A stretch of 64,000 bases of DNA from Roseburia hominis A2-183 (lineage in GTDB: Bacteria > Bacillota > Clostridia > Lachnospirales > Lachnospiraceae), in contig NC_015977.1 of assembly GCF_000225345.1 (NCBI RefSeq), positions 2,215,501-2,279,500 on the forward strand. Direction: 5' to 3'. Position 1 is the first letter of the stretch. Every line of letters starts with the position of its first letter. The notes beneath the pieces were generated by a model. That model saw nothing but the letters and a program-made list of their open reading frames with translations, did no database searches and was not told the origin of the DNA. Of the stretch, positions 46,839 through 63,486 are shown piece after piece. A program made the translations under genes and the position numbers.

Positions 46839-46887
46839 CCAGAGACAAATTGTCAAGGACTTTTTAATCAAATTCACAGAAAACTCA

Positions 46888-46925
46888 CAAAAGGTGCCAG
46901 AAGCACTGTATGGCTCCTGACACCT
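46888..46925 (-). terminator. Terminator near the left end of IME-B
   Basis: On the minus strand a perfect 13-bp stem (AGGTGTCAGGAGC/GCTTCTGGCACCT, with G-U pairs) and an 8-nt loop precede TTTTGTGAGTTTT. It ends the operon whose last gene is at 46,937 and insulates virD4. Confidence 0.85.
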
Positions 46926-46936
46926 CATTTAACAGA

Positions 46937-47302
46937 TTACATTTTTCCGTTCAGCAGGTCTTTGCAGAGATACGCATAGTCTGGCAGCTGGTTGATATAT
47001 GGCTCCCAGAGCCGCTTGATTTCGGCTAACTCCAGCGGGTCGGCTGCTTCCAGTGCATGATCGTTGCCAGTCATATATAAAACATCCGTAGCAACATCAT
47101 CCAAACACTTGCCGCAGAGATCGGCGGCAGATTCTATCCTGATACCGGTATCCACATAGACTGGATTTACGCCAATCGTCAGCCAGACATAGCCCACCTT
47201 GTCCGACCAGAGCAATTCAAAATCAGGGCTTTGCCGCAGATGTTCCGCAAAGACTTCCTTTACTCGCTCAATTTCATGTTTCTCTTTTTCTGTGTAAAGC
47301 AT
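46937..47302 (-). CDS. IME-B protein of unknown function, 121 residues
   Basis: The acidic soluble protein starts MLYTEKEKHEIERVKE after GGAGG 8 nt upstream (an ATG 6 bases earlier is too close to the SD). A segment VGYVWLTIGVNPVYVDTG and a C-terminal LWEPYINQLPDYAYL stand out. It is the last gene before the left end. I recognise no family. Confidence 0.75.
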   Translation of the reverse strand: MLYTEKEKHEIERVKEVFAEHLRQSPDFELLWSDKVGYVWLTIGVNPVYVDTGIRIESAADLCGKCLDDVATDVLYMTGNDHALEAADPLELAEIKRLWEPYINQLPDYAYLCKDLLNGKM

Positions 47303-47379
47303 TTTCATGTCCTCCTTGACAAAAATTTTGGTGCGTACCATCATCAGTTTAGCACAAGGCGGCTTAGTTTATCAGTCTG

Positions 47380-47574
47380 TCACATCTGCTGAATTTCATT
47401 TTTGAGCATACGCTTGATTTTATCGCTCATGGTTTCTGTGCTGGTATTGCTGAAATGGACATGAACCTTGTAGGTCGTCTTGCCGATTTTCTTTACCATC
47501 GCTGGCGTGTTTTCCGGCGCTCTGGCCGCAGCAGCGGCGTCTGCCATCTGCATAGTACGGGGTTCTTTGTTCAT
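47380..47574 (-). CDS. TnpW-like small transposon protein of IME-B
   Basis: The 64-residue protein contains IGKTTYKVHVHFSNTSTETM and KIKRMLKNEIQ, matching TnpW-type proteins of Tn4451-like elements. It lies next to the DnaC-like gene, as in IME-A. Role unknown. Confidence 0.8.
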   Translation of the reverse strand: MNKEPRTMQMADAAAAARAPENTPAMVKKIGKTTYKVHVHFSNTSTETMSDKIKRMLKNEIQQM

Positions 47575-47617
47575 AGCGCTCCTTTCTCCGAACGGGTCTG
47601 TGCCGCCCGGTAAAAAA

Positions 47618-48481
47618 TCAATCGTGCTTACTGTTTACAATGTCTTTTGCTGCCTGTCGGGTGACACCGGCATTTTCTTCCCGGAAATTCTTCCCGTCAA
47701 AGAGGATCGGCGCACACCGTTCCAAAATACGGTCATAGATACGGGCGTGGGCCAGATCAGGCGGATTTTTCAGCTCGGACAGTTTCAAGTTTGTTGTGAT
47801 AATCATGGGTCTTCGGCTGCGATAGCGGCTGTCGATGACGAAAAACATCTGCTCCATAGCATATTCGGTACTGCGCTCTACACCCAGATCGTCAATGATA
47901 AGCAGGTCATATTCGTCAAAGCTGGCAATAAACTCTGACCTGTCCTCAGAGAACATCCCTGTCAGGCGGTTCAGAATGGTGGGGAAGTTCGTCATCAGCA
48001 CCGGCACATCCTGGTCAAGTAGAGCGTTGGCAATACATCCGGCGAAAAAAGACTTGCCGGTTCCCACATCTCCAAACAGTAAAAGCCCGATATTGCTCTT
48101 ATATGCCTCTTTCCAGTTCTCCACATAGGCATGAGCCTTGTCCATCAATGGGTTTTGCCTGTTATCATTGGAAAATGTGTAGTCGTACAGATAACGGTCT
48201 TGCAGGCCCTGTGCCTTTCGGCGTTTGATACGCTCCATGCGGCGCTGCCGTTCTTCAGCAGCCTTGCGCTGCTCCTCAGCCTCCCGCTGGCACTGGCAGA
48301 TGCAGTGCGGCATAAAGTAGCCGGATTTCCCGAAGCATGGCACAACGGTCTGCCTCTGGCCGCCGCATTTCTTACAGTGAATGAGCCCGTCTGACGGGTC
48401 TATATACTCGTCCTCAGCCAATTCCACACCGGCAGCTGCCTTGTCGATGAATGCCCGGATTTCTGCGGTAATCTCAATCAT
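47618..48481 (-). CDS. DnaC/IstB-like ATPase of IME-B
   Basis: The 287-residue AAA+ ATPase has a zinc site (HCKKCGG...CICQC), Walker A FGDVGTGKSFFA and Walker B LLIIDDLGVERSTEYA. It resembles the IME-A protein at 40,289 and should load helicase on the excised element. It overlaps the Rep gene by 4 bases. Confidence 0.92.
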   Translation of the reverse strand: MIEITAEIRAFIDKAAAGVELAEDEYIDPSDGLIHCKKCGGQRQTVVPCFGKSGYFMPHCICQCQREAEEQRKAAEERQRRMERIKRRKAQGLQDRYLYDYTFSNDNRQNPLMDKAHAYVENWKEAYKSNIGLLLFGDVGTGKSFFAGCIANALLDQDVPVLMTNFPTILNRLTGMFSEDRSEFIASFDEYDLLIIDDLGVERSTEYAMEQMFFVIDSRYRSRRPMIITTNLKLSELKNPPDLAHARIYDRILERCAPILFDGKNFREENAGVTRQAAKDIVNSKHD

Positions 48482-49227
48482 ACAGTTTCATCCTCCTTTA
48501 CGCTGTAATCCCGGTTGCGTGAGGGTGTGACCGTTTTTTTAGCGTCCTCACCGGCCCAACGCCGGATGGTCGCTGCATGGCTCTGATAACGCTTGCCAGT
48601 AGAAGCCATGTACTCGGACAGCTTTTCGATGTACTGTTCCCATACAGCAGGAAAGCTGACCTGCAAGTCTGCCAGTTCTTCATCCGTCAGGAAAACATTC
48701 TGGTAACGGCCATAGGTGTGGGAAGGGTGCCCCGTTTCAGGGCGTACCTTCTCTATCTCTCTCTTTATCTCTATCTCTTTCTCTAACTCTATCTCTATCT
48801 CTGGTGGACGAATGTCGGACAAATGTCCGCCACTTGTCCGGAGCGCAGAAAGAGCCTTATTTTGAAGCCTTGCAGCCCGCTTTCGCTCGGCCTCGGTAGA
48901 GGACTGGCCTATTAAAAGTTCGATGTTGCTCATGTAGAATGTGCCGCTGTCCAGCACTTCCACAAGACCCAGCTTCAAAAAGATCTGCAAGGCTCTCTCC
49001 ACAGTGCCGATCTGCTGGCGGGTAATGGTAGCGATCATCTGCGCTGTGTAAGGGATGTCCTCGTCAAGCTGGAGCCGCCCGCCATGTTTCAGCGATTTCA
49101 GGTACAGCTTGAGCAGAATGTTGGAATACAGCACACCGTCCTGCATACTTTCCAGCAGCACGATGGAATCATCATCAAAATAGTTTTCTTTGAGTTTCAG
49201 GTAATAATATTTTCGATTGTCTGACAT
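48478..49227 (-). CDS. Replication initiator-like protein of IME-B
   Basis: The 249-residue protein begins with a phage-replisome-organizer-type domain (YYLKLKENYFDDDSIVLLES) and ends with the same YQSHAATIRRWAGED domain as the IME-A Rep protein. Between them a TCTATC-type short tandem repeat (about 48,750-48,805) encodes an acidic-basic helix (EIEIELEKEIEIKREIEK). With the DnaC-like protein it forms the element's replication unit. Confidence 0.85.
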   Translation of the reverse strand: MSDNRKYYYLKLKENYFDDDSIVLLESMQDGVLYSNILLKLYLKSLKHGGRLQLDEDIPYTAQMIATITRQQIGTVERALQIFLKLGLVEVLDSGTFYMSNIELLIGQSSTEAERKRAARLQNKALSALRTSGGHLSDIRPPEIEIELEKEIEIKREIEKVRPETGHPSHTYGRYQNVFLTDEELADLQVSFPAVWEQYIEKLSEYMASTGKRYQSHAATIRRWAGEDAKKTVTPSRNRDYSVKEDETV

Positions 49228-49340
49228 AGGGTTCCTCCTTAGGGGTTCTTTTGGGATTCTGTACGCATTTTAAGGCTATTTTAGGGGTCAGAGGATAAAT
49301 CTATCAGACTGCCTTTGACACCCTCAAAAAAAGCCTTGAT

Positions 49341-49739
49341 TTACAAGGGTTTTTCAGCCCCTAAAGCGTGACATTTCTCCCGTTGTTTCCGCTTGCGCTT
49401 TGCGGCGTTAATCCGCTTCATGCGTGCGGCACATTCCGGGCAGTATTTAGCCCGGTTAGAACCGGGGGTAAACAGCGCCCCGCATACGGCGCATTTCTTA
49501 GCATTCAGCCGGTGGAACAGCGCCGTTTCCAGTTCCTTATCCTGCGGCAATACCGCCGCCCGAAACCACCTGCACAACAGGGAGTAGGAAATGGACTGGA
49601 CACAGATACATTCCTCCCCATCGTCCAGGGCGATACAGTTTCCGGCAATGTAGTTGCAGCACTCATGCACCAGTTTCCGCGCTCTGCGGTACTGGCGGTA
49701 ATCCATGACAGGGATAGGTTCAGTCTTGTTGTTCTTCAT
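49341..49739 (-). CDS. Cysteine-rich VLP-type zinc protein of IME-B
   Basis: The 132-residue protein shares MDYRQYR.ARKLVHECCNY, the VLPQDKELETALF segment and the zinc ribbon CAVCGALFTPGSNRAKYCPEC with the IME-A homologue. Its basic tail ends in KRKQREKCHALG, as in IME-A. Role unknown. Confidence 0.8.
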   Translation of the reverse strand: MKNNKTEPIPVMDYRQYRRARKLVHECCNYIAGNCIALDDGEECICVQSISYSLLCRWFRAAVLPQDKELETALFHRLNAKKCAVCGALFTPGSNRAKYCPECAARMKRINAAKRKRKQREKCHALGAEKPL

Positions 49740-49794
49740 AAATGATTTCTTTCATAAAGCAGGTAACCTCCTTGAATGAATTTATTGTTAAATA

Positions 49795-49841
49795 TTCGTG
49801 CAAAGTATTGTTTTCTTCGTGCAAATGGCATATACTATAAT
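49795..49841 (+). promoter_or_regulatory. Promoter and operator of the toxin-antitoxin operon
   Basis: TTGTTT (49808-49813) and TATACT (49831-49836) are 17 bp apart. The sequence TTCGTGCAAA occurs at 49795-49804 and 49816-49825, one copy on each side of the -35, two helical turns apart, and is the likely antitoxin binding site. Confidence 0.65.
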
Positions 49842-49865
49842 TGCCAGCAGAAAGGGGTTGATCGT

Positions 49866-50144
49866 ATGGCTGGAAATACCACAAACATCAGTATCCGCAT
49901 GGACGCAGATTTGAAAGCGCAGGCGGACGCACTGTTTACGGAACTTGGCATGAACCTGACTACGGCGTTTAACATCTTTGTGCGCCAGTCGCTTCGTGAA
50001 GGCGGCATTCCCTTTGAAGTAAGGCTGGAACAGCCGAACAAAGAAACGGTTGCTGCCATGCTGGAAGCGGAAAGGATTGCAAAAGACCCGTCTGTAAAGG
50101 GCTACAATGACCTTGACGAGTTATTTGCTGACCTGAAAAGATGA
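49866..50144 (+). CDS. relB: RelB/DinJ-type antitoxin
   Basis: The 92-residue protein has a ribbon-helix-helix domain (TTNISIRMDADLKAQADALF, GMNLTTAFNIFVRQSL) that binds the operon promoter, and a C-terminal tail that should wrap the toxin. The ATG at 49866 follows AAGGGG. It overlaps the toxin gene by 4 bases. It is one of very few plus-strand genes in IME-B. Confidence 0.93.
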   Translation: MAGNTTNISIRMDADLKAQADALFTELGMNLTTAFNIFVRQSLREGGIPFEVRLEQPNKETVAAMLEAERIAKDPSVKGYNDLDELFADLKR

Positions 50145-50431
50145 AAGAAACCAAATATACCGTCAAGTACACGACCAGTTTCAAAAAGGACTACAAACGA
50201 GCCATCAAGCGTGGCTTGAAGATTGAGCTGCTGGAGCAGGTCGTAGCATTGCTGGCAATGGGCGAACCGCTGCCGGATAAGAACCGTGACCATGACCTGT
50301 CCGGCGATTGGGCAGGTCATCGGGAATGTCATATTCTCCCGGACTGGCTGCTTGTCTATCGCATAGAGGATGATGTTCTGGTGCTGACGCTGGCCCGCAC
50401 CGGCACACACAGCGACTTGTTCGGCAAATAA
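50141..50431 (+). CDS. yafQ: YafQ/RelE-type mRNA interferase toxin
   Basis: The 96-residue toxin has the YafQ pattern: FKKDYKRAIKRG, DHDLSGDWAGHRECHILPDW, LARTGTHSDLF, including the His and Asp residues of the RNase site. It cleaves mRNA on the ribosome when the antitoxin is lost, so it should select for retention of IME-B. A terminator follows. Confidence 0.93.
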   Translation: MKETKYTVKYTTSFKKDYKRAIKRGLKIELLEQVVALLAMGEPLPDKNRDHDLSGDWAGHRECHILPDWLLVYRIEDDVLVLTLARTGTHSDLFGK

Positions 50432-50439
50432 ACAGTCTG

Positions 50440-50472
50440 CCGCCGTATGGGGAAACCTGTACGACGGTTTTT
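50440..50472 (+). terminator. Terminator of the toxin-antitoxin operon
   Basis: A 7-bp stem CCGCCGT/ACGACGG with one mismatch is followed by five T. Confidence 0.6.
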
Positions 50473-50538
50473 CTGTATGCAAAAGTATGTCGTGAAACGC
50501 GACGCACTTGACAGGGGTACGCCAAAACGCGGTAGCCT

Positions 50539-51975
50539 TTACCGCTCCGGCCCACGGTCGTGAGACTTATCCCTTTCCTGTCGGGACAGCTGATCGGCGG
50601 TTTTGCGGAGCCGTTCCACTGCTTTCAAATCCTCCCGCATGGATTTCATGGAAAGCGTGTCCGTCTGCTTTCCGGCGGTCAGCTGGTCGATTTCCCGCTG
50701 CCATGCCTTCGGGGTAATTGCCTCACCGCTGTCTTTCAATTCTTTCAGATACCGGGCTGCTGCGTCATACAGGATCAGTTCCCTGCTGTGGCGCTGCTCA
50801 AACTGTTCCCGCTTTTCCGGCTTTACTTTGGCAAGCTGTTTGTGGATGGACTTGTACTGATTGTACTGTTCCCACATCTCCCCGCGCTCGGTAAGAGCGG
50901 CGATCCGGCGTTCTGCCTTGACGATCTTTCCCCGCAGGTCATAGTAACGGATGTTCATATCAGCGATTTTTTCATGGAGCTGCTGCATAGATTGGATGCC
51001 GTTTGCCTGCAAAAAGCTGAATAGTGCAGCGCTTTCCTGCAAGGCCCGGATTTTGCCGGTGCGGGTGCGGGAAGTGTTCAGCTGCTGCTGGGCCTCCCAC
51101 AAGGCGGTCAAGCTGCTTTGCTGTGTTTGTGGTTTTTCCGCTTCATCTTTCGACCAGCGATAAAGACGGGTAATGCGGGCTTTGATTTCTTTCAGCAGCT
51201 TGTTGTCAGCGGCAATCTGCCGGTTTACTTCTCCCTTGTCGGTGCGGATGCCGCGCTTTTCCATTTGGCTGGCGGCTGGCCCCAGATGGACAGAGGGAAT
51301 CTTATCAATGCCCTGCCGCTTGTAGCTGCGGTGGTCAATGCGCTCCGGTCTGCCGGCAGATTCCAGCGCCCGATTGGTGTAGGCCGCCCACGCTGCCCGC
51401 CAAATCTCCACATTTCCTTTATCGTTCCAGTTGGTCGTATCCTCTCTGTGATTTTTCCAGCCGCCTTTCCCATCCGGGATACGCTGTCCATTCTCGTCCA
51501 GATCGTATGCCTTGCGGCACTTTGCGCCCCACTGTCCATTTTCTTTCAGAGGCCGGAGCGTCAGCATGATATGGACATGAGGGTTACCGGTTCCCTTGTC
51601 ATGGATAGCAAAGTCAGCACACATTCCTTTGTCTACAAAGTTGTCCTTCACATAGGTGCGCACAAGGGCAAGCTGCTGTTCACCGGACAGTTCACGGGGC
51701 AGAGCTGCCTCGATCTCACGGGCAAGCTGGCTGTCCCTTGCTTTCTCGATTTGCTCCACGCTGTTCCAGAGGATAGAACGGTCTGCAAATTCCGGCGGGG
51801 CGTGGGCAGGAAGCATGATCTCCGCATGGACAATGCCGCCTTTCCGGGTGTAGTCGTGGGTCATTCCGTCCCATTCATTTGTCAACTTGGTTCCGCTGCG
51901 GTAAGCAGCTGCGGCAACGGCAGAACGGCCTGCGCTGCGCTTGATGATACTGACGGGGATATGACAGAAATCTAT
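50539..51975 (-). CDS. mobA: MobA/MobL relaxase of IME-B (MobQ type)
   Basis: The 478-residue relaxase has the MobQ features: KRSAGRSAVAAAAYRSG near the N-terminus and the His motif DKGTGNPHVHIMLTLRPL. A helical C-terminal half follows. The SD AAGGAGG (51984-51990) is followed after 8 nt by ATA at 51975; the only GTG (51984) overlaps the SD. The start is therefore uncertain and may be near-cognate. An oriT typical for this family lies upstream. Confidence 0.9.
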   Translation of the reverse strand: MDFCHIPVSIIKRSAGRSAVAAAAYRSGTKLTNEWDGMTHDYTRKGGIVHAEIMLPAHAPPEFADRSILWNSVEQIEKARDSQLAREIEAALPRELSGEQQLALVRTYVKDNFVDKGMCADFAIHDKGTGNPHVHIMLTLRPLKENGQWGAKCRKAYDLDENGQRIPDGKGGWKNHREDTTNWNDKGNVEIWRAAWAAYTNRALESAGRPERIDHRSYKRQGIDKIPSVHLGPAASQMEKRGIRTDKGEVNRQIAADNKLLKEIKARITRLYRWSKDEAEKPQTQQSSLTALWEAQQQLNTSRTRTGKIRALQESAALFSFLQANGIQSMQQLHEKIADMNIRYYDLRGKIVKAERRIAALTERGEMWEQYNQYKSIHKQLAKVKPEKREQFEQRHSRELILYDAAARYLKELKDSGEAITPKAWQREIDQLTAGKQTDTLSMKSMREDLKAVERLRKTADQLSRQERDKSHDRGPER

Positions 51976-52127
51976 GGGGAACACCTCCTTTCAGTGAGGG
52001 ATAACAGGCTCTGTGGAGCCGGACAAACGCAAAGTGGGTGTTTGGCTGCGCAGAGCGCACAAGGGGTTTGGGGAGCGTAGCTTCCCATCGCGGACGAAGT
52101 ACGCAACGCCCCCGGCAGGGCGCACAG

Positions 52128-52170
52128 CACCGGCAACGGTGTATAAGTGCGCCCTTGTAAACAAGGGACT
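52128..52170. other. oriT of IME-B (MobQ type)
   Basis: The inverted repeat CACCG/CGGTG (52128-52141) stands just before TAAGTGCGCCCTT (52144-52156), the nick-region pattern of RSF1010/MobQ oriTs as I know it. CCTTGT/ACAAGG and ATAAGT/ACTTAT add further dyad symmetry. It is upstream of the MobQ relaxase gene. Confidence 0.75.
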
Positions 52171-52460
52171 TATGGCGTATCCCCGGATTTTGACAGGTTT
52201 GCAGTCAATTCCGCAGCCCCCGGAAGATGGGACAGGGCAATCAAAAATGCTTTGACCTCTGCGCCGGAAAGGTTGGGAGCCAGCGGAAAAATCCCCTCCA
52301 AAATGGCTCCGCGCTCAATCAGGCGGCGGGTGCGAACCCTGCGTTCTTCGTTTCGCTGCTTGTTCTCCAAAATCTTCTTTCGGTTTTCAAGCTGCCGAAT
52401 CTCCTTCAGAACTTCCTCTTGTTCCTCACTTTTTGTTTGGGCTGTATTCTGTTCGTTCAT
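52170..52460 (-). CDS. DUF3847 family protein
   Basis: The 96-residue protein is a charged coiled coil (EEVLKEIRQLENRKKILENK) with a C-terminal segment ILEGIFPLAPNLSGAEVKAF. DUF3847 proteins accompany MobQ relaxases in Firmicutes elements and are probably relaxosome accessories. The ATG at 52460 follows GAGGTG. Confidence 0.85.
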   Translation of the reverse strand: MNEQNTAQTKSEEQEEVLKEIRQLENRKKILENKQRNEERRVRTRRLIERGAILEGIFPLAPNLSGAEVKAFLIALSHLPGAAELTANLSKSGDTP

Positions 52461-52488
52461 GTCATGCACCTCTTTTCTTTGGAAATAC

Positions 52489-52950
52489 TCATAGATTGAC
52501 CGTCCATTTCTGACGCACAAAGTACCGGCGCAGCCTCCGCAGTGCGGCATGGATGGATTTTCCCGCCTGTGATGGCGTGATACCCTCCATTGCGGCAATA
52601 TCTTTCACTTTCATACCCAGCATATAGCGGGCGTGGACACGGCGGGCCTGCATAGGCGGCAGGGAAGAAATGGCTTCATACAATCGCCGTATCAGTTCTT
52701 CGTATTCGGCTAATTCTTCTTTTTCTATCAGATGATCCTCCGGCGATGGCTGTGCCCAGCCGATTGCGGCATTTTCGATTCCGTCGTTACAATCGAGGGA
52801 ATAAAACGCCTTATACCGGAACATCTTGCGCTCTCTGGCGGCCTCGGCTCTCTTATCCAGAAGAAACGCTTCGACGATCTCATCGGACACCTCCACAAAA
52901 ATGTCCTCTTTGCAAAATGGATAATATTGTTTGAGATTGATGGTCTGCAT
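52489..52950 (-). CDS. Sigma-70-like factor 3 of IME-B
   Basis: The 153-residue protein (MQTINLKQYYPFC...) shares the layout of the ICE sigma-like factor at 19,395: N-terminal motif, YSLDCNDGIENA, and a C-terminal region-4 HTH (GMKVKDIAAMEGITPSQAGKS). It is the third of three tandem homologues and lies 28 bp before the DUF3847 gene. Confidence 0.85.
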   Translation of the reverse strand: MQTINLKQYYPFCKEDIFVEVSDEIVEAFLLDKRAEAARERKMFRYKAFYSLDCNDGIENAAIGWAQPSPEDHLIEKEELAEYEELIRRLYEAISSLPPMQARRVHARYMLGMKVKDIAAMEGITPSQAGKSIHAALRRLRRYFVRQKWTVNL

Positions 52951-52960
52951 AGGCACGCCC

Positions 52961-53413
52961 TCACTCTGTTTGAAAAAGGTCATCATAGCAGCGGCGCATA
53001 TTCCGCAGACCCCGACGGATGGAAACGCTGACCTTGCTGCTGTGGACGCCCTCTCTCCGGGAGATTTCCGGCTGCTTGATACCGGCAATGTAGTAGGCGT
53101 GAACACGGCGGGCCTGTGTCGGAGTGGCATGAGTCAGAGCCACCAGCAGAGCTGCTATCAGGTGCAGGCGGGTGGTCATTTCTTCTCGTTCCAGCAAAAT
53201 ATCTTCCGGCGATCTGCTGTGTTCCAGTGCGTAATTTTCCAGCCAGCTGTATGCGTCCAGAGAGTAGTAGGCGCGGTGGTAGACTTTCCGACGCTCATAG
53301 TTCTCCATCTCCCGCTGGGCCTGATACATCGCTGCCCATACCTCGTCCGTAACATCCACAAACTCGTCATGCCGGTAGTGGGGATACATCCACCGCAGAT
53401 TGATTGTTTTCAT
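52961..53413 (-). CDS. Sigma-70-like factor 2 of IME-B
   Basis: The 150-residue paralogue (MKTINLRWMYPHYRHDEFVD...) has an HTH with EISRREGVHSSKVSVSIRRG. It ends 10 bp before the next sigma-like gene, so the two are co-transcribed. Divergence from its neighbours is high, so this is an old duplication or the proteins have separate promoters to serve. Confidence 0.85.
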   Translation of the reverse strand: MKTINLRWMYPHYRHDEFVDVTDEVWAAMYQAQREMENYERRKVYHRAYYSLDAYSWLENYALEHSRSPEDILLEREEMTTRLHLIAALLVALTHATPTQARRVHAYYIAGIKQPEISRREGVHSSKVSVSIRRGLRNMRRCYDDLFQTE

Positions 53414-53516
53414 AGGCTTACCTCCTGAAAATCGGAGAGGCGGGCAGCTCGTCCGCTGTCCGCCCCTCGCTGAGATAAGGGAAATGATCCCTTTCACTTG
53501 GTAGCCAGAAAACAGG

Positions 53517-53930
53517 TCATTCGTTAAGCCTGTTCTCAAAGAAATTTATAAATTTTTTTCTGACCGCCTCCACACTTTGATACACAGCCACTTTGGAGCA
53601 GCCGCACAGCACACCGATCTCTGCAAGGCTCAGCCCGTCAAGCGCATAGAGCAGGAACCGGCGGCGCTGAGCCTCGGTACAGGTGTCCAGAACCGCCATC
53701 AGCTCATGCAGCGTTTCCATGCGGCAAAGGTATTCTTCCGGCGTTTCACCGTAGGCTCCTACACCCTCGGTGGTAATGATGTACTCGTCAAACTCCCGGC
53801 CATCCCAATGCCGCCGCTGTTCATGAAACAGGTTCTCCGTTTTGTGATCGGCCCGGTCAAGAAATTCATAGACTTCCAGCGTGACCTCCACGGCCACAAC
53901 TTGTCCGTTATAATTGATGGTAACTTCCAT
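53517..53930 (-). CDS. Sigma-70-like factor 1 of IME-B
   Basis: The 137-residue protein (MEVTINYNGQVVAVEVTLEV...) has a C-terminal HTH (LSLAEIGVLCGCSKVAVYQSV). It is the first gene after the leader-peptide/attenuator region, so it is the direct target of that control. The ATG at 53930 follows GGAGG. Confidence 0.85.
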   Translation of the reverse strand: MEVTINYNGQVVAVEVTLEVYEFLDRADHKTENLFHEQRRHWDGREFDEYIITTEGVGAYGETPEEYLCRMETLHELMAVLDTCTEAQRRRFLLYALDGLSLAEIGVLCGCSKVAVYQSVEAVRKKFINFFENRLNE

Positions 53931-54040
53931 CTGCCTTTCCTCCATTCAGATTTTTTGGGTAAATCTGAATGAGGCGGCGGGGAGCGGCACCGGGGATAAA
54001 GTTCGGGCCATGCTGACCCGATGTTCCGGCTCCATAAGGA

Positions 54041-54077: not shown

Positions 54078-54102
54078 TAATAGAGTATATTTTGTTGTTC
54101 AG

Positions 54103-54238: not shown

Positions 54239-54289
54239 GATTTACACGGTGTTAGGTCGTCGTTGGTTTAGGATAAACGAAAAGAAACG

Positions 54290-54376: not shown

Positions 54377-54384
54377 GCAGAATG

Positions 54385-55679: not shown

Positions 55680-56474
55680 TTAGATTTCCTGGCGCCGGTA
55701 AACCAACGCAATCAGCGCAAGAAATACAACGGCTTCCACAACAATCACACCGAACACCTGAACACCATTCAGAAAATACGGACTGATCCGTTCCAACAAG
55801 TCTGCCAATTCCGCACTGGTCTGGCTTTGGTCATAAAATTGGAAGGTCCAGCGGAAAGCCAGCGGTCCCGGAAACAGGGTTCCGATATTCAAACCAAAAG
55901 GCTGTGTGAGGAACGCATCGCTCATCGAAAGGATATAATTTGCAGTCGTATAGAAAAAGGTAATCACGACCGACACGATATAGTTTTTATTAAGAAGAAC
56001 AACGAGCAGGATACATGGAAGTGCGCCTACCCACATAATCAGCCCTTCTTCTATCCCAACGCCAAACAAGATCCAAAACCCAACCGGCTCCCAGCCCTGA
56101 AACAGCAAAACCGCAAGATTTACCAATCCTCCAACTGCCATAAAGCCAACGGCAAACAATAGCAAAACCAGCATCTTGGACAGCACCAACTTGGTTCTGT
56201 TTATCGGTATGGTAACAAGGTTTTTTAGTGTGTCATTGTCCAGCTCCTCAAACAGCAGATTGGAAGCCAGTATCACAAGGAGCGGCATCAAAAGCAAATA
56301 AGCACTGAGCTGGAACAGGCTGGACATCACTCCATTTACAGCATCCACATCAGTGTTTACATCTGCCAGAAAGAAAGCATAAGCCAATGGCATGAAAACA
56401 GAAAGCAGCAGAGAAATAAATACCAAGGGCTTCCGTTTTAATTTCAAAAATTCGCATTTGATTAGTTTAAGCAA
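55680..56474 (-). CDS. ABC-2 type permease, LanE-like
   Basis: This 264-residue six-helix membrane protein starts MLKLIKCEFLKLKRKPLVF, with TLKNLVTIPINRTKLVLSKM in the first loop, both typical of LanE/MutE permeases. It overlaps the ATPase stop by 8 bases and is followed by LanG after 12 bp. Confidence 0.88.
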   Translation of the reverse strand: MLKLIKCEFLKLKRKPLVFISLLLSVFMPLAYAFFLADVNTDVDAVNGVMSSLFQLSAYLLLMPLLVILASNLLFEELDNDTLKNLVTIPINRTKLVLSKMLVLLLFAVGFMAVGGLVNLAVLLFQGWEPVGFWILFGVGIEEGLIMWVGALPCILLVVLLNKNYIVSVVITFFYTTANYILSMSDAFLTQPFGLNIGTLFPGPLAFRWTFQFYDQSQTSAELADLLERISPYFLNGVQVFGVIVVEAVVFLALIALVYRRQEI

Positions 56475-57393
56475 TTCCTTCGCCCCCTGTCACACGCTTG
56501 AAGTAATCTTCAAGACTTTCTTCACAAGTATGCGCCTCCGATACCTCCAATCCGTTTTCTACAAAGGCAGTTACAATTTTCCCCACAGGCAGATCAAGGT
56601 TGTGCAGGCGCAGATTGTGGTCGTCCTGTATGGAAAAATGGTTTTCATGGAAATTGCGTTCCAAAATTCTTGCCGCCTGTGCAGTATCAGAGAGTGTAAA
56701 CCGGATATGCTTACTGCTTTTTTGCTCCAGTTCAGCAAGGCTTTCTTCTTCCAGCAATGCGCCGTGATCGATAATTCCAATATCGTCAGCCAGCAGGGAA
56801 ATCTCCGAAAGAATGTGACTGGAAATCAAAATGGTTTTTCCTCTTGCGTCGCAAAGCTCCCGAATAAAAGAGCGTACTTCTGCAATACCGATAGGATCGA
56901 GACCGTTGATCGGTTCATCCAAAATCAAAAGTTCTGGATCGTGCATAACGGCAAGGGCGATGGCAAGCCGCTGCTTCATACCAAGAGAATACTGAGAAAA
57001 GAGTTTTTTATCTTTGTAGGGAAGTCCTACCAAATCCAGAGCATCTTTGATGGCATGATTGTTTGGTACACCCCGCAGAGTAGCAAAAATACGCAGGTTT
57101 TCTGTGCCGGTCAGATTGGGATAAAAACCGGGGGACTCAATCAAGCTGCCGATACGGGGCAGCAATTTCTTTTCATTCCCCTGTAAAGACTTTCCCCAGA
57201 TTTTGACCTCTCCGGAAGTCGGCTTCGTTAAGCCCAACAGCATTTTCATGGTAGTGGTTTTTCCGGCTCCGTTTCTGCCAAGCAGACCATAAATTCTCCC
57301 ACGCTTCACATGGATATTTAAGTCAGCCACACTCTTTTGCGAGCCATATTGCTTCGTCAGATTTTTTGTTTCAATGATGTAATTTGTATCCAT
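56467..57393 (-). CDS. ABC ATPase, LanF-like (BcrA family)
   Basis: The 308-residue ATPase has Walker A GRNGAGKTTTMK near residue 40, signature YSLGMKQRLAIA, Walker B LLILDEPINGLDP, and a C-terminal extension typical of BcrA/LanF. With LanE and LanG it forms a peptide-antibiotic immunity transporter. The ATG at 57393 follows GGAGG; tandem regulator boxes lie upstream. Confidence 0.93.
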   Translation of the reverse strand: MDTNYIIETKNLTKQYGSQKSVADLNIHVKRGRIYGLLGRNGAGKTTTMKMLLGLTKPTSGEVKIWGKSLQGNEKKLLPRIGSLIESPGFYPNLTGTENLRIFATLRGVPNNHAIKDALDLVGLPYKDKKLFSQYSLGMKQRLAIALAVMHDPELLILDEPINGLDPIGIAEVRSFIRELCDARGKTILISSHILSEISLLADDIGIIDHGALLEEESLAELEQKSSKHIRFTLSDTAQAARILERNFHENHFSIQDDHNLRLHNLDLPVGKIVTAFVENGLEVSEAHTCEESLEDYFKRVTGGEGIA

Positions 57394-57419
57394 ATTCAAA
57401 ACCTCCTGTTCTGTAAGGT

Positions 57420-57473
57420 ATTCTATCACGCCAACCTTGCATTAACCTTGCCGCAACCTTGCATTAACCTTGC
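57420..57473 (-). promoter_or_regulatory. Response-regulator-dependent promoter of the LanFEG-like operon
   Basis: On the minus strand four copies of GCAAGGTT stand at an exact 11-bp period (57473-57433), ending 7 bp before TAGAAT (57425-57420). They replace a normal -35, so transcription should need the OmpR-type regulator encoded upstream. Confidence 0.75.
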
Positions 57474-57528
57474 AATTTGAAATCCGGCAAAAATGACAAA
57501 GGTTCCCGCCATAAAGACGGGAACCCGC

Positions 57529-58446
57529 TTAAATCTCCAAAGGAAAAAGCAACATAAATTCAGTTCCTTTTCCCGGCAAACTTTCAACTGTTATACTCCC
57601 ACCCATCTTTTCTACAAGCTGATGGACAATAGAAAGACCAAGTCCGCTGCCTTTTTCAGAGCGTCCTTTGTCACACTTATAGAGCCGTTCAAAAATGTGT
57701 TTCAAATCTTCCTTCTCAATTCCCACTCCATTATCCGCCAGCAGCAGCTCCATGTTATTTTCCTTCTTTGACAGGGCAATTTTGATTTTGTCTGCATGGC
57801 TGTGAGCAATTACATTTTGAATGAGATTGTTGACGATCCTCATATAGCTGTCCATATCCAATCTTACCCGGACAGGCTGTTCGGGAATATCGATGTCATA
57901 CTCAACCTGTTTATCCTCAAAAATCGGTATCCAGTCAATGAGGATATTTCTTGTCAGCTCTGCGGCCTCAACGCTCTGGATCTCCAAAGCAAACTCGTTT
58001 GAATTTAACTTGAACCAGTCAAAGAGTACATCAATATATTCTTTCAGATCATGGGCTTTCCGGCGGGCGGTTTCAATATAATCATCCCGGTCTTTTCCTG
58101 TGACCAGTCCTTTGTGTGCAGCGTCAAGATACCCAATCAGAGTAGTAAGGGGCGTTCGCACATCGTGGGAAAGGCTCGTCATAAGCTGGCGGTTGGTTTC
58201 TTCTGTCTGCCGTACAGTTGAAAGTCTGCTTTCATAGGCCACAACGATCTCGTTGATTTCATAGGCAAGAGGTGCTGTCAGTTCATTTGTTGCAGATAGA
58301 ATACGCCGGTTGCCATTTCCGTCTTTCACATCAACCAGTGCATCGGTCATTTCTGCGATTTGCTTTTTTACGCGCCGAATGAGAACGATGGAAGTCAATA
58401 CAGCCACAACAGCAATCACAATGGACAAGAATACGATAATTTCCAT
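57529..58446 (-). CDS. Sensor histidine kinase of the IME-B cargo
   Basis: The 305-residue kinase has one strong N-terminal membrane helix (residues 2-22), almost no sensor domain, a HAMP-like linker, an H box (MTSLSHDVRTPLTTL), an N box (IVNNLIQNVIAHS) and G boxes (LADNGVGI, GSGLGLSIVHQL). It is unlike the ICE kinase. It probably senses through the ABC transporter or inside the membrane. Confidence 0.92.
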   Translation of the reverse strand: MEIIVFLSIVIAVVAVLTSIVLIRRVKKQIAEMTDALVDVKDGNGNRRILSATNELTAPLAYEINEIVVAYESRLSTVRQTEETNRQLMTSLSHDVRTPLTTLIGYLDAAHKGLVTGKDRDDYIETARRKAHDLKEYIDVLFDWFKLNSNEFALEIQSVEAAELTRNILIDWIPIFEDKQVEYDIDIPEQPVRVRLDMDSYMRIVNNLIQNVIAHSHADKIKIALSKKENNMELLLADNGVGIEKEDLKHIFERLYKCDKGRSEKGSGLGLSIVHQLVEKMGGSITVESLPGKGTEFMLLFPLEI

Positions 58447-58451
58447 GCTGA

Positions 58452-59144
58452 CTACACCTCCTTATTAAACCGGTAGCCAATCCCTTTGACCGTTTGTATA
58501 TACTTTGGGCTTGAAGGATTGACTTCTAATTTTTTACGAAGTCGGCTGATAATCGCCATAATGTTACTGTCATCATAGAAATATTCTTCGCCCCAAACTT
58601 CCTCATAAATCTGCTGTTTTGTCAAAATTTTCCCTTGATGCTTTGCACAGTACAGGAGCAAATCAAATTCCTTTGGTGGAAGTTCAAAAGTGCCATTTTC
58701 CGTCGTAACAGAACGATTTTCAAGGTCAATTTGCAATCCATCAAAATCCAGTTTTTGCACAGCTCCGGCTTGATGATTAAAACGGGTGTAGCGGCGAATG
58801 AGGGACGCAATACGGGCAATCAGTTCGTCCATATCAAACGGTTTTGTCAGATAATCGTCCGCCCCGGCTCGTAAGCCCCGCACTTTAGAAATGCTGTCAT
58901 TTTTGGATGTGAACATCAAAATCGGCAGGCTGTTCTCTTTGCGGATTTCTTCCAGCGTTTCAAAGCCATCCATACCGGGCATCATCACATCCAGCACTAC
59001 AAGCTGGTATTCCTGCTCTTTTAATTTCTGTAAACCCTCTTTTCCAGTATTACAAAAATCAGCTTCTATGTTTTCTGCTTGTACGCTGCGTTTAATCAAA
59101 GCACACAGTTCTCTGTCATCATCTATAATCAGGATTTTATTCAT
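58452..59144 (-). CDS. OmpR-family response regulator of the IME-B cargo
   Basis: The 230-residue protein has a receiver domain (IIDDDRE, VVLDVMMPGMDG, YLTKPFD) and a winged-helix DNA-binding domain (SNIMAIISRLRKKLEVN). The ATG at 59144 overlaps the helix-turn-helix gene by 8 bases, exactly as in the ICE module. Its likely target is the GCAAGGTT array at 57,433-57,473. Confidence 0.93.
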   Translation of the reverse strand: MNKILIIDDDRELCALIKRSVQAENIEADFCNTGKEGLQKLKEQEYQLVVLDVMMPGMDGFETLEEIRKENSLPILMFTSKNDSISKVRGLRAGADDYLTKPFDMDELIARIASLIRRYTRFNHQAGAVQKLDFDGLQIDLENRSVTTENGTFELPPKEFDLLLYCAKHQGKILTKQQIYEEVWGEEYFYDDSNIMAIISRLRKKLEVNPSSPKYIQTVKGIGYRFNKEV

Positions 59145-59325
59145 GGCGCAACTCCTTCCCTTGTTTTGTCCTTCCGTCAATCGGCTTTTCTGTGTTCTTT
59201 GGGATCAGCCAAACACCAGCCATCTTCACAGCGCCGGGGATGCGCCCTCCGGCGCAATAATAATTTACCCTACGAGGTGTCACGCCCCACTTTTCGGCGG
59301 CCTCTTTCAATGTCATATAGTCCAT
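59137..59325 (-). CDS. Small helix-turn-helix protein of IME-B
   Basis: The 62-residue protein differs from the ICE copy (24,577) in only about ten positions; EAAEKWGVTPRRVNYYC is unchanged. It overlaps the response regulator in the same way. Such close similarity between genes feeding unrelated two-component systems points to recent exchange of the frame around the cargo. Confidence 0.85.
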   Translation of the reverse strand: MDYMTLKEAAEKWGVTPRRVNYYCAGGRIPGAVKMAGVWLIPKNTEKPIDGRTKQGKELRHE

Positions 59326-59345
59326 TTCGCACCTCCACAGAGTAC

Positions 59346-59374
59346 ATTATAGTTCTCTTTCTCGAACAATGCAA
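59346..59374 (-). promoter_or_regulatory. Cargo-module promoter of IME-B
   Basis: On the minus strand TTGCAT and TATAAT are 17 bp apart and enclose GTTC...GAAC half-sites, as at 24,786-24,814. The divergent XRE gene starts at 59,470. Confidence 0.65.
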
Positions 59375-59469
59375 GGAACGAAATGTGAATTATAAACTTC
59401 AACCAACCTGCATATAGCAACATTCCACGGACAAAGTATGAATTATACAATGTAACTGGGTGATGTTAT

Positions 59470-59838
59470 ATGGCGAAAGTTGAAGATTGTCCCGGTTTTG
59501 AAACCTTCGGTGCAGATGTCAAAGCCGCACGAGAGGCAAAGCGTTTGGCACGAAAAACATTGGCAGAAATGGTTGGGATTGAATGGCGGTATCTTGCCAA
59601 CATTGAGAATCAAGGTGCGATTCCGAGCCTGCCTGTGATGATCCAGTTGATTAAGGTCTGCGGACTTCCCGTAGAGCGATATTTTAACCCGGAGATCATG
59701 CGGGAAGAAAGCGCACAGCGGCAGCGGGTCAGCCACAAGCTGAAGCTCTGTCCTGAACAATACCTGCCGATTATCGAAGGTGCCATAGACGGGGCGCTCA
59801 AAATGGAACAGACTGCGAAGCAGAAGGAGGACGCATAA
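59470..59838 (+). CDS. XRE-family transcriptional regulator of IME-B
   Basis: The 122-residue protein has an N-terminal HTH (REAKRLARKTLAEMVGIEWRYLANIEN) and a helical C-terminus. It is divergent from the helix-turn-helix/regulator operon and is the positional counterpart of the ICE gene at 24,916, although the two proteins are only distantly related. Confidence 0.9.
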   Translation: MAKVEDCPGFETFGADVKAAREAKRLARKTLAEMVGIEWRYLANIENQGAIPSLPVMIQLIKVCGLPVERYFNPEIMREESAQRQRVSHKLKLCPEQYLPIIEGAIDGALKMEQTAKQKEDA

Positions 59839-59858
59839 TCGCGGCCTCCTTCTGGCAT
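59822..59858 (+). terminator. Probable terminator of the IME-B XRE gene
   Basis: AGAAGGAGG pairs with CCTCCTTCT across a 14-nt loop at the end of the gene; only a weak T stretch follows. Confidence 0.45.
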
Positions 59859-59865
59859 TTCTATA

Positions 59866-60165
59866 TCAAGGTTCCCGGCACTTTTCCAAAAGTTCCCGAC
59901 ACCTCTGCTGGATTTCTCCGGTTTCTGTCACAGTCAGCTCGCGGTCATTTCCGGTAATCTTATCTTCCAGAAAGTTAGCGTATGTACTCAACAAAGCGTT
60001 CCGTAAATCCTCCGGGGTTTTCTGTATCTCGGCGCTGTACCAGTCATTCCGGTGGAGCTCCCATGCCATCAATGTATAACCGTGGCTGGTCTGAACCACC
60101 TCATACAAAGGGTCATCATCCAGATATGCCTGAAACACTTTCAAAACCTTTTCAAAGGTCAGCAT
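59866..60165 (-). CDS. IME-B protein of unknown function, 99 residues
   Basis: The acidic protein starts MLTFEKVLKVFQAYLDDDP after GGAGG and contains TSHGYTLMAWELHRNDWYS. It is followed by nothing on the same strand until the XRE gene and preceded by tnpV by 16 bp. I recognise no family, though similar small proteins sit next to tnpV in other elements. Confidence 0.75.
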   Translation of the reverse strand: MLTFEKVLKVFQAYLDDDPLYEVVQTSHGYTLMAWELHRNDWYSAEIQKTPEDLRNALLSTYANFLEDKITGNDRELTVTETGEIQQRCRELLEKCREP

Positions 60166-60181
60166 TTCCCGCACCTCCCAT

Positions 60182-60535
60182 TCAGCTGCAAATCAGTTCC
60201 CTGATTAAAATTTCCTCAATCTGTGCCGTTAATGTGTTCATCAGCCCCACCCAACGCATAGGGTGACAGGCTTTCAGTTCTTCCGTGACACCCGCAACTT
60301 CCATCATGTGAGGCAACATGGTTTCCACACGCCCCTGTGCTGTCCGCTCAATCTCTAACAGGTGTGGATACAGCTTCTCGCTCATCAGCAGATGGTTGTA
60401 GAGAATGGGGCGATGTTCCTTTAGGTAGGATTTTCGCATTCTGCCGTACTTGCCGATAGAAGTTTCCGGCTGTTCAGAAAGTTTTAGGTTGGGTATATCA
60501 TAATCTCCACAACGAATGTAAGTCAACTTACTCAT
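60182..60535 (-). CDS. tnpV: TnpV-like transposon protein
   Basis: The 117-residue protein (MSKLTYIRCGDYDIPNLKL...) matches TnpV of Tn4451-like elements: GKYGRMRKSYLKEHRPILYN and the C-terminal MRWVGLMNTLTAQIEEI. The ATG at 60535 follows AAAGGAG at 7 nt. It lies 26 bp after the recombinase gene. Its role is not known. Confidence 0.88.
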   Translation of the reverse strand: MSKLTYIRCGDYDIPNLKLSEQPETSIGKYGRMRKSYLKEHRPILYNHLLMSEKLYPHLLEIERTAQGRVETMLPHMMEVAGVTEELKACHPMRWVGLMNTLTAQIEEILIRELICS

Positions 60536-60561
60536 ATTCATTCTCCTTTGCTTCGTGATGA

Positions 60562-62442
60562 TTAGACTGCTGCGCTGGCTGCTATGCTGCCTTTGCGTGG
60601 TTCTTCTTTCGGCAGCTGTCCGACAGTAGAAAAAACGCCTTTTTTCATATCCTCAGCCCGGATCAGGGCTTTCTTAGCGTCCATTTCCGCTTTTTTCTTC
60701 GCCTTGATTTTGTCCTCATACCGTTTCTGTGCGCCGCTGGCTTTCCGCTTCAAATAATTCTGATGAAGCCTGTCCTTGCGTTCTTCTTTTTTCCGCAGTT
60801 CTTCCTGTTCCTCCGGGGTTAAAGGAACCGGCTGTAAGGATGGTGGGATATAGCGTCCTAAAAAATTGAAGTAGATTTCAATTTCCTGCGTGGTGTCCTG
60901 ACTGCCTTTTCGGGCGCGTTCGTGGACAAGGATTTTCTCTACAAACTCATTGAGCATGGTGTTTGTCAGCGTGTCAAAATTCTCGTATTTATCAATCAGG
61001 GCTATAAATTTCTCCGCTGATTTCTGGCTTTGCTCGTAGCCGGTAACAGCCTTTTCCAGCTCCGCAATTTCAATCTCAAGTGCGTCCTGCTCTTTGGCAT
61101 ACTGTGCATCAAGCGCCCTATATCGTGCATCCGGCAGCTTGCCGAGGACATTGTCCTCATAGATTTTGCAAATCAGTTTTTCCAGTTCTCCGGCTCTCTT
61201 TTGAGCAGCGGCCAGACGCCTGCGCTTTTTCGCTATATCGGCACTCTGTTGGGCAACCTGCGTTTCCTGAACGGTGTGAATAAATTCCGTCCGGTCATTT
61301 TTGGAATATTCAGCGATAGCCCGGAGCGTGTCGGAAACCAATGTCAGAACAGCACTCTCATTGATACGGTGTTGTGTATGGCATAGTGTCCCACACGGAA
61401 CTTTGGTATAATTGGAACAGGTATATTGAGAAATCCTCTTGCCATTGTTGGTGCGGTGGACATACATCTTGCCGCCGCAATCGGCACAATAGAGCAATCC
61501 TGTGAGGGGAGCCGCTTCGCCCCAGCCGTTTGGATAACGCCGTACATTGCTGCGGATTTTCTGCGCCAAATCAAAGGTCTGCTGGTCGATAATGGCTTCA
61601 TGGGTATTCTCAAAGATCGTCCATTCGTCCTCAGAAACATAGTGGCTTTTCTTGTCCTTAAAGTGCTTGCGGGTCTTGAAATTGATGGTGTGCCCCAAAT
61701 ACTCTCGTTTTTTCAAAATGTTCACGATGGTAGATGATCCCCATCCATAGGGGTCTTTGACCGGCTTTGAACGGTTCACACCCTCGTTGAAGCGGGCAAG
61801 GTGTACGACGGGAATTTCAATCCGATCTGCGGATAATTTGCAGGCAATCTGATAAGGCCCATATCCCTCCAGCGTGAGGGAGAAGATACGGCGTACCACT
61901 TCGGCGGCTTCCTCATCTACCAGCCAATGCTCCCGTTTTTCGTCCCATAAGTAGCCGTAAATCACAGTGCCGGTCAGGTGCTTGCCGCTCATACCTTTTG
62001 CCTTAAACACAGAACGGATTTTCCTGCTGGTATCACGGGCGTAAAATTCATTCATGATGTTGCGGAATGGGGTAAAATCGTCATCGCCTTTCAGACTGTC
62101 CACACCGTCGTTGATGGCGATCAGACGAACACCGCGTTGCCGCAAAACCTCCATGACCTGACCGACCTTCAGATAGTCGCGCCCCAACCGGCTCATGTCC
62201 TTGATGACGATTGCCTCTACACGCCCTGCCTCCACTTCCTCCATCATCGCCAAAAATCCGGGGCGGTCAAAACGGGTGCCTGAGATACCATCATCTGTAA
62301 AGTGCGTAGGGTTTGGCAGCCCATTCCGGCGGGCAAAATCCTCTAACATCTGTTTTTGGTTGGATATGGAATTGCTCTCGCCCTGTAACTCGTCGTCCCG
62401 GCTCAGGCGCTCGTACAGTGGGGTAATTTTTTCATTTCTCAT
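60562..62442 (-). CDS. Large serine recombinase of IME-B
   Basis: The 626-residue enzyme has the catalytic serine in LYERLSRDDELQGESNSI near residue 14, KDMSRLGRDYLKVG, a zinc ribbon (YCADCGGKMYVH...CSNY) and a long basic C-terminal helix (KKEERKDRLHQNYLKRKASG). It is encoded at the right end and reads inward. It should catalyse precise excision from virD4. Confidence 0.95.
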   Translation of the reverse strand: MRNEKITPLYERLSRDDELQGESNSISNQKQMLEDFARRNGLPNPTHFTDDGISGTRFDRPGFLAMMEEVEAGRVEAIVIKDMSRLGRDYLKVGQVMEVLRQRGVRLIAINDGVDSLKGDDDFTPFRNIMNEFYARDTSRKIRSVFKAKGMSGKHLTGTVIYGYLWDEKREHWLVDEEAAEVVRRIFSLTLEGYGPYQIACKLSADRIEIPVVHLARFNEGVNRSKPVKDPYGWGSSTIVNILKKREYLGHTINFKTRKHFKDKKSHYVSEDEWTIFENTHEAIIDQQTFDLAQKIRSNVRRYPNGWGEAAPLTGLLYCADCGGKMYVHRTNNGKRISQYTCSNYTKVPCGTLCHTQHRINESAVLTLVSDTLRAIAEYSKNDRTEFIHTVQETQVAQQSADIAKKRRRLAAAQKRAGELEKLICKIYEDNVLGKLPDARYRALDAQYAKEQDALEIEIAELEKAVTGYEQSQKSAEKFIALIDKYENFDTLTNTMLNEFVEKILVHERARKGSQDTTQEIEIYFNFLGRYIPPSLQPVPLTPEEQEELRKKEERKDRLHQNYLKRKASGAQKRYEDKIKAKKKAEMDAKKALIRAEDMKKGVFSTVGQLPKEEPRKGSIAASAAV

Positions 62443-62464
62443 GGCTGTACCTCCTGAAACAAAA

Positions 62465-62527
62465 ATGCTCTAAGTGATTGCTTCACTAACCATGACAAAA
62501 TCATGATTAAGAAGTCACTTAGAGCAT
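62465..62527. repeat. Inverted repeat between the recombinase gene and the right end of IME-B
   Basis: Perfect 13-bp arms ATGCTCTAAGTGA and TCACTTAGAGCAT flank 37 bp, ending 7 bp before the element boundary. It also contains TCATGATT/AACCATGA symmetry. It is probably the recombinase binding region of the right attachment site, perhaps also an autoregulatory operator. Confidence 0.7.
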
Positions 62528-62533
62528 ATATCA

Positions 62534-63486
62534 CCGCTGGCCAATTTGTACTTTTTATACTGTTTGACCGCGAAGCAATCCGGCTTACGCTTTTCGAGCC
62601 CGGCAAACATATAGTCCACCGCGTTCATAAAATCCTCGTCATCCTCCTTGACCTCCATGCCGGAAATCATATCCACAAGGGTATTCATGTTCCGATCCTC
62701 GGCAGGCCCCTCGAAAATGATGTAGGCGATCAGAGCACAGTACAAAAGCGTTTCCGATTTCGTCCAGAATGGATCGCCTTCCTTGCCTTCGCCCTTGGTG
62801 TTGGAAATCAGGGCATCCACGAATTTCAGAATATCGGCCTCGTTGCGGATATACGCCAGCGGGTTATAGTGCATGGATTTTGAAAAATCTATGCTGTTGA
62901 ATACCTTGATTTTGTACCCGCGTTTTTGCAGGAAACCCCCGACCTGTCCCAGCACACCGCCTTTCGGATCGACCACCACATAAGAGGAATGAGCCTGTAA
63001 AAGCTGGGGCGTGAGCCAGAAGCGGGTTTTGCCGGAGCCGGACGAGCCGATAATGCAGCAATTCAAGTTTCTGGCATTTGCGGGGATTTTCGGGCGGGTG
63101 TTCATCGTGAGAAACTCTGTCCCGGTCAAAATCACGTTGTTTTCAAACCTTGGATCAACAAACGGTTTGATGTCTTTTTCCGTTCCCCACCGGGCGCTGC
63201 CATATTCTGCATCCCGCCGAAACTTCTTAGCGTTCTTGCTTTTGAAATAGATCAGCAGCCGGAAACCAACTGCGCCTACAATACCGACAAGCCAATCCAG
63301 CGGAGCAAGACCGGGTGCAAAGTCAGCAAAGGCCGGGCCAATCGTCTGGCCCAGCCCGATGAGCTTATGTGCAAAATCGTTACCCGCCGCCAGCCGGTAG
63401 GCCGTTCCCAGCTTGAGGAACGCCCACAGGATGAACAGATAGGGAATGTTCAGAATGAGATATTTTCTAATCTTATCTGTCCTCAT
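62534..63486 (-). pseudogene. VirD4/TraG coupling protein, 5' part (split by IME-B)
   Basis: The ATG at 63486 follows AAGGAGG. The fragment holds two N-terminal membrane helices and Walker A IIGSSGSGKTRFW near residue 145, then ends at LASG. From there the frame runs into the element and stops after five codons. The remainder is at 45,956-46,838. Confidence 0.93.

Follow-up and report, generated by a model that had tools for sequence, protein, structure and literature searches.

We asked what follows for a conjugative element when a smaller mobile element occupies its coupling-protein gene. The question arises from a window of 64,000 nucleotides (the whole stretch of DNA analysed here; G000:C1:2215501-2279500, G000 being the host genome) in the complete 3.59-Mb genome of Roseburia hominis A2-183. 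In this window an integrative and mobilizable element (IME), here called IME-B and 15,695 bp long when counted with one core dinucleotide, splits virD4, the gene for a coupling protein of the CD1115 family, in an integrative and conjugative element (ICE). We consider it highly probable that IME-B is an IME of the Tn6104 type whose serine recombinase targets a virD4 site with a GG core in CD1115-family ICEs, that its excision restores the reading frame and that it leaves through a channel that supplies VirD4. A preliminary description of the same DNA had placed a CC dinucleotide at each junction, at 46839-46840 and 62534-62535, and both were found there when the sequence was read. The 5' piece of virD4 reads ...YKLASG and runs on into the element-encoded DICSK and a stop, and the 3' piece reads GKTAKSILISCG...DAFA up to its stop. 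Both pieces matched NF045973 (VirD4-like CD1115 family; 442 positions). The 5' piece contains GSSGSGKT and the 3' piece LWDEAAN, which we take to be the Walker A and Walker B motifs, respectively; therefore neither piece alone should be an ATPase.

Does the gene occur in nature without the element? The two pieces were never joined artificially; each was placed on relatives on its own. The relatives compared were the best 80 of 231 for the 5' piece, and the query included five element-coded residues, so that counts among them are not frequencies. In 70 of the 80 the pieces were contiguous and met on one shared Gly codon, in agreement with the earlier claim of an exactly restorable frame, and the uninterrupted homologues among the 80 do carry LASG-KTAK at the insertion point. 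Eight relatives were interrupted at that codon (L006, L009, L010, L017, L027, L039, L047 and L080); as for the remaining two, the gene is decayed in L037, and that of L085 runs off its contig. The proteins of two intact genes are 99.4% (5' piece) and 100% (3' piece) identical to the split one in L007, and 98.8% and 100% identical in L008. The DNA of L007 runs uninterrupted across the site; the two flanks are 98.2% and 99.8% identical. Its virD4 has 617 codons plus a stop (1,854 nt) when read from the first ATG; with the ATG of MRTDKI, six codons further in, as the start, the length is 1,836 nt, as the preliminary description gave it for the restored gene. The decayed case, L037, comes from Faecalibacterium sp. 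I4-3-84 and holds a decayed IME in virD4: the 5' part ends at residue 296, the recombinase is cut, and the sequence after the break starts with GTGCG, as in group II introns.

The codon is used repeatedly within the host genome. A scan with NF045973 found two uninterrupted virD4 genes, three split ones and one small fragment, and all three split genes (of five virD4) were interrupted at the same codon. Copy 2 (L097) shares with IME-B DNA blocks of 96.6, 94.2 and 92.7% identity and a 98% identical recombinase, and it differs in the regulator and the ATP-binding cassette (ABC) transporter genes (proteins 30-40% identical). Because this IME-B-like backbone lies in a VirD4 gene whose product is only 51% (5') and 56% (3') identical to that of the IME-B host ICE, the element has moved between unlike ICEs. 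Copy 3 (L098/L099) is a related element with a 75% identical recombinase and both ends at the same codon.

Other genomes gave a similar picture. Patterns for the two ends of the element were derived from virD4 insertions and searched with zero mismatch allowed, and they therefore favour the virD4 site. Right ends occurred at 24 places in 21 genomes (397 genomes of the host's family searched), and virD4 followed at once and in frame at 21 of the 24 (18 by script, three with GKTLK by eye), or at 18 of 21 when the host genome's own three are set aside. Left ends occurred at six places in four genomes (391 genomes of the host's class searched), four of them at virD4 and three of these in the host genome. 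Judged from these sequences, the reuse of the codon (three of three split host genes, 21 of 24 right ends) appears to be beyond chance. Further occupied virD4 genes were present in G271, with pieces 17.7 kb apart, and in a Monoglobus record (L110). In a sample of the best 120 VirD4 proteins of 181-576 aa, a length limit that enriches fragments so that the classes are not frequencies, 45 break off at the codon into an IME-type tail (42 found by script, and P0077, P0092 and P0118 by eye), 62 read through, 9 are without the motif and 4 have other tails; P0014, P0026 and P0120 were, like the three just named, reclassified by eye. One VirD4 protein, P0029, is interrupted about five residues before the main site, possibly at a second site.

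As to the recombinase itself, a search of 398 genomes of the phylum gave no matches at E <= 1e-180 outside the host genome (three copies) and one other (one copy, 62%), and close relatives seem to be uncommon among species representatives; a protein search gave at least 120 records at 99-100% identity to the IME-B recombinase among the matches listed. About 32% of IME-B is covered at 90% identity in a Subdoligranulum record (OY725878.1:39555-47245). Outside the Firmicutes, the Campylobacter coli plasmid pCOS502 (L109, 714-2941) carries TnpV and a recombinase that shares 76% identity with the IME-B enzyme; an aminoglycoside phosphotransferase gene is annotated in that record immediately downstream.

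When the enzyme is a large serine recombinase with a 2-bp core, the expected outcome is symmetry about GG with a single GG at either junction. Arranged as in attP, the two ends of IME-B give GATTAAAAAGTC - 17 nt - GG - 17 nt - GACTTCTTAATC, with complementarity at 11 of the 12 positions of the 12-bp end arms; these ends would form a symmetric serine-recombinase site.

The gene content agrees with what the preliminary description had claimed, namely a recombinase, a relaxase and an origin of transfer (oriT) of the element's own and no channel genes. Pfam and NCBIfam matches identified both enzymes, and the 17 open reading frames (ORFs) of the element that were scanned showed no type IV channel family, those on the other strand lying outside the scan. 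The claim of an oriT gained sequence support from TAAGTGCGCCCT, which has the form of the nic motif of MobQ plasmids and matches exactly once in the window, against 0.02 matches expected by chance; this match lies 160 bp upstream of the relaxase gene. The adjoining hairpin folds with a z of -2.28, and the motif recurs in L006, L009, L097 and L110, and in L098 with a different hairpin. With its own recombinase, defined ends, a relaxase and an oriT-like site and no channel family, IME-B has the predicted make-up of an IME. The features are collected in Table 1.

Table 1. Features of the split virD4 gene, IME-B and related loci (window positions, unless a genome or record coordinate is given)
Feature	Position	Strand	Remarks
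Core dinucleotide, 3'-virD4 junction	46839..46840	CC on +, GG on gene strand	Read from sequence
Core dinucleotide, 5'-virD4 junction	62534..62535	CC on +, GG on gene strand	Read from sequence; ends symmetric about core
virD4 5' part	62515..63504	-	Residues 1-324 plus five element-coded; PF02534 positions 48-196; NF045973 positions 1-207
virD4 3' part	45956..46840	-	PF02534 positions 232-440; PF12696; NF045973 positions 215-441
IME-B body	46841..62533	-	15,693 bp; absent from 70 of 80 relatives, virD4 contiguous there
Large serine recombinase	60562..62442	-	Resolvase, Recombinase, Zn ribbon, DUF4368
TnpV, possible excision helper (putative function)	60182..60541	-	PF14198, 138.5 bits, cut-off 27
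Small protein, no assigned function	59866..60174	-	Kept in L006, L009, L097
Response regulator (cargo)	58452..59180	-	PF00072, PF00486
Sensor histidine kinase (cargo)	57529..58446	-	NCBIfam matches all below cut-off
ABC transporter ATPase	56467..57429	-	Best NCBIfam match lantibiotic-protection type, below cut-off (247 vs 310 bits)
ABC permease	55680..56474	-	PF12730
ABC permease	54852..55667	-	PF12730
Lipoprotein-like cargo protein	54385..54855	-	Lipobox-like LLGASVLSGC read by eye; no Pfam family
Sigma-70 region 4-like protein	53517..53945	-	PF08281
Sigma-like protein	52961..53539	-	About 40% identical to the 52489..53130 protein; no Pfam match of its own
Sigma-70 region 4-like protein	52489..53130	-	PF08281
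Putative oriT	52127..52155	+	Hairpin CACCG-GCAA-CGGTG, then TAAGTGCGCCCT (52144-52155)
MobQ/MobA-MobL relaxase	50539..51984	-	PF03389, 324.5 bits; NF041496 above cut-off
Cys-rich VLP protein	49341..49739	-	PF14194
Phage-type replisome organiser	48478..49227	-	PF09681
DnaC/IstB-like ATPase	47618..48481	-	PF01695
Small protein without family	46937..47344	-	92-96% identical in L037 and L097
IME-A, separate from IME-B	38257..45735	-	Same ICE; in maff2-like gene (L007 ORF 11938-12162)
Three-layer stack	G000:C1:337095-369126		
Interrupted copy 3 recombinase	L098:1762-1955 + L099:5610-7765 (G000:C1:337.8k-361.3k)		

The kind of element to which IME-B belongs is already known, and both IMEs in traG/virD4 and the idea of excision as a switch are in print; what is cited here comes from parts of the papers named. 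Serine-integrase IMEs have been described in traG/VirD4, maff2 and snf2 of Tn5252-superfamily ICEs (PMC5704250, PMC5357655), which agrees with the statement in the preliminary description on mobilizable elements in streptococcal traG/virD4. Tn6104, which lies in Tn6103 of Clostridioides difficile R20291, has a 2-bp direct repeat, and its circle, its excision and the restored target were shown by polymerase chain reaction (PMC3158075); its target is an internal site of traG/VirD4 (PMC5704250 table). Tn6104 and IME-B measure 15.6 and 15.7 kb and have a G+C content of 48.2% and about 49%, respectively. Both have a 2-bp direct repeat (GG/GG in IME-B) and lie inside virD4/traG of a Tn5252-/Tn1549-like ICE, and both carry a serine recombinase, TnpV, a regulator, a two-component system, a three-gene ABC transporter, three sigma-like proteins and MobA/MobL (PMC3158075), as well as a replisome organiser and DnaC (PMC5704250 table). 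The likeness is drawn from the published description of the gene plan and the target gene. Tn6104 has also been reported with a putative toxin-antitoxin pair and a phage-associated protein; no toxin-antitoxin Pfam family was found in the scanned IME-B ORFs, and we regard the pair as accessory and not as defining for the Tn6104 type. Tn6104 in C. difficile is also dealt with in PMC4430133 and PMC3547915, class 5 IMEs in PMC13214566, and gut elements and serine recombinases in general in PMC6907783 and PMC10083194.

Other elements resemble IME-B in fewer respects. IME_Sco1050_traG_site1 and IME_Sco1050_traG_site2 of Streptococcus constellatus (PMC5704250, PMC5357655) and the Tn1549_traG IMEs of Streptococcus suis (PMC7168690) are likewise serine-integrase IMEs in a VirD4 gene, and they are likened to IME-B by target gene only. 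IME_Rho_tet and the maff2 IMEs (IMEs in maff2 are described in PMC12904643) resemble IME-B in having a serine recombinase and in occupying a conserved ICE gene in gut Firmicutes, but their target gene is another one, and IME_Rho_tet carries tet genes, none of which were seen in IME-B. Tn4451/Tn4453 (TnpX) share with IME-B a TnpX-type recombinase with TnpV and a mobilisation gene (PMC3158075), whereas Tn4451 has numerous GA targets (PMC5704250 Table 1) and IME-B a GG core at mostly one codon.

How might such an element enter and leave? We propose that the recombinase recognises the virD4 site ...Y-K-L-x-x-G^K-T-A/L-K-S in CD1115-family ICEs and would recombine it at GG with the element's symmetric site, which would separate the half with Walker A from the half with Walker B. 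The same enzyme would also excise the element, probably with the help of TnpV, leaving a single GG and the frame as it was before. The MobQ relaxase would nick IME-B at its own oriT-like site, and the element would exit via a conjugation channel that supplies VirD4, either that of the host ICE after excision or that of another ICE in the cell. Landing in the helper's own gene would harm no cell gene and would place the element where a helper is present. IME-B is most likely a conjugation parasite that uses its helper's coupling-protein gene as a landing site and restores it on leaving.

Several points weigh against this. No excised form or circle was seen for the IME-B copy, and its helper is a presumed one. 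The junctions, the empty sites in nature, the reuse of the codon and the gene content are observed; that the element excises here, that this ICE is the helper and that there is any tie to the induction of conjugation, we infer. The recombinase carries DUF4368, reported to be common in multi-target recombinases (PMC10083194). Three of the 24 right ends (L129, L140, L146) and two of the six left ends (L104, L105) lie off the codon, as do both matches on viral contigs (L150, L151), and the pCOS502 recombinase sits elsewhere than in virD4. Nor does the site stand out as the best-conserved stretch of virD4, an idea that we rejected: among 441 windows compared over 61 distinct sequences, the 40-bp one with the core at its centre takes rank 355. 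Another candidate that we did not accept was L108 (OY725856.1, 8,501 bp, labelled circular), whose sequence coincides exactly with a related IME, from one GG to the other. It was not counted as a circle because it would wrap as GGGG, with two cores and not one, and because its assembly project gives plasmid or circular labels to other contigs as well (OY725853.1, 13.5 kb, with a virD4 5' part; OY725736.1, 518 kb); as a sign of an excised circle it is suggestive only.

Finally, we asked what the insertion does to the ICE. The preliminary description had read it as a block to transfer and a control switch. Its account of a precise satellite with recombinase, relaxase and oriT-like site stands; the block and the switch do not follow, as two intact virD4 genes remain and no sequence sign of regulated excision was found. 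For a regulated switch, induction of the ICE would lead to excision of IME-B, the restored virD4 would allow both to transfer and the IME would re-insert in the new cell. The proposal that IMEs in traG excise upon induction of conjugation and so restore transfer dates from 2017 and concerned streptococcal ICEs (PMC5357655, PMC5704250); in the passages of the open-licence literature drawn on here the tie to induction for virD4 insertions stands as a proposal without a test. The exact natural empty sites speak for a switch, and so does the condition of the pieces. Codons were compared in genes of equal length only (5' part: L006, L007, L008, L009, L010; 3' part: L007, L008), leaving out L011, L014, L035 and L100, in which the 5' part is out of register from indels, together with their 3' figures. 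The split gene differs from L007 by 25 synonymous and 2 non-synonymous changes in the 324 codons of the 5' part and by none in the 294 of the 3' part, from L008 by 23 and 4 and by 2 and 0, and from L006, which is likewise occupied, by 20 and 1 in the 5' piece. At least 220 codons are open after the core in 19 of 21 occupied virD4 genes (207 in L133 and 27 in L142). By these counts the pieces are not decaying, and recent insertion or repeated excision would both explain this, a recent insertion predicting it equally well. Moreover, no regulatory link was found, some insertions look locked (the interrupted recombinase of copy 3; L142 with its few open codons), and ICESp2905 was reported to transfer with IMEs still in maff2 and an SNF2 gene (PMC5704250). 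We regard a regulated switch as unlikely.

Alternatively, IME-B may be a complemented passenger, the VirD4 of another ICE in the cell serving both the split ICE and the IME, so that the insertion would have little effect as long as the cell has such a VirD4. Because the host genome holds two uninterrupted CD1115-family virD4 genes, one of them encoding a VirD4 that shares 88% (5' part) and 94% (3' part) identity with the product of the split gene, complementation of the split ICE in trans is possible, and the five VirB4 genes in the genome also fit this view; an intact virD4 copy lies at G000:C1:2964800-2966113. However, cross-use of VirD4 between these ICEs is only hypothetical, and the check for a second copy covered only part of the hosts; we see in complementation a realistic prospect that still falls short of an even chance. 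The insertion could also be plain damage, in which the ICE is stuck and will decay and the IME is the sole moving part. A separate element, IME-A, also interrupts maff2 of the same ICE, stacked or decayed cases exist (L098/L099, L037, L142), and in C. difficile Tn6103, a composite that carries three IMEs, was seen to excise, but no transfer of it was detected (PMC3158075). Against this stand the exact frame on both sides, the apparently whole element with a full-length recombinase and the undecayed pieces, and we find plain damage quite improbable.

In copy 3, further mobile DNA of about 21 kb interrupts the recombinase gene itself. The break follows ...ESNSISN, at a conserved codon near position 35, and shows a 2-bp CA overlap: L108, which is intact there, matches the left side up to its base 194 and the right side from its base 193. 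The inner DNA carries its own serine recombinase, a MobQ relaxase, a type III restriction-like protein and an SNF2-like protein, and as long as this DNA is in place, copy 3 could presumably not excise with its own enzyme alone. The metagenomic fused proteins P0003, P0006 and P0070 have the recombinase codon (ESNSISN) followed by other sequence, hinting at a second, reused target. It is conceivable, if rather doubtful, that these are nested locks, every mobile layer occupying precisely a gene on which the movement of the layer beneath it depends. Should both splits be reversible, the layers would have to excise one after another from the top down before transfer could take place, and the top element would control the whole stack. 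IME-A, in turn, is absent from L007 and L008 and has a 2-bp overlap at the join, which makes it a second precise insertion; it fits the published maff2 IMEs (PMC12904643).

What the present analysis adds is the reuse of one codon within one genome, the survey of right ends and the three-layer stack, and we consider multiple occupancy and the stack to be the better leads. Satellites can exploit conjugative elements precisely, one coupling-protein codon being a landing site in unlike ICEs. Therefore a gut ICE whose gene count suggests that it is whole may have no coupling protein of its own to offer. With three virD4 genes occupied and two intact in one complete genome, and with near-identical empty sites in nature, the 2017 proposal would be directly testable.

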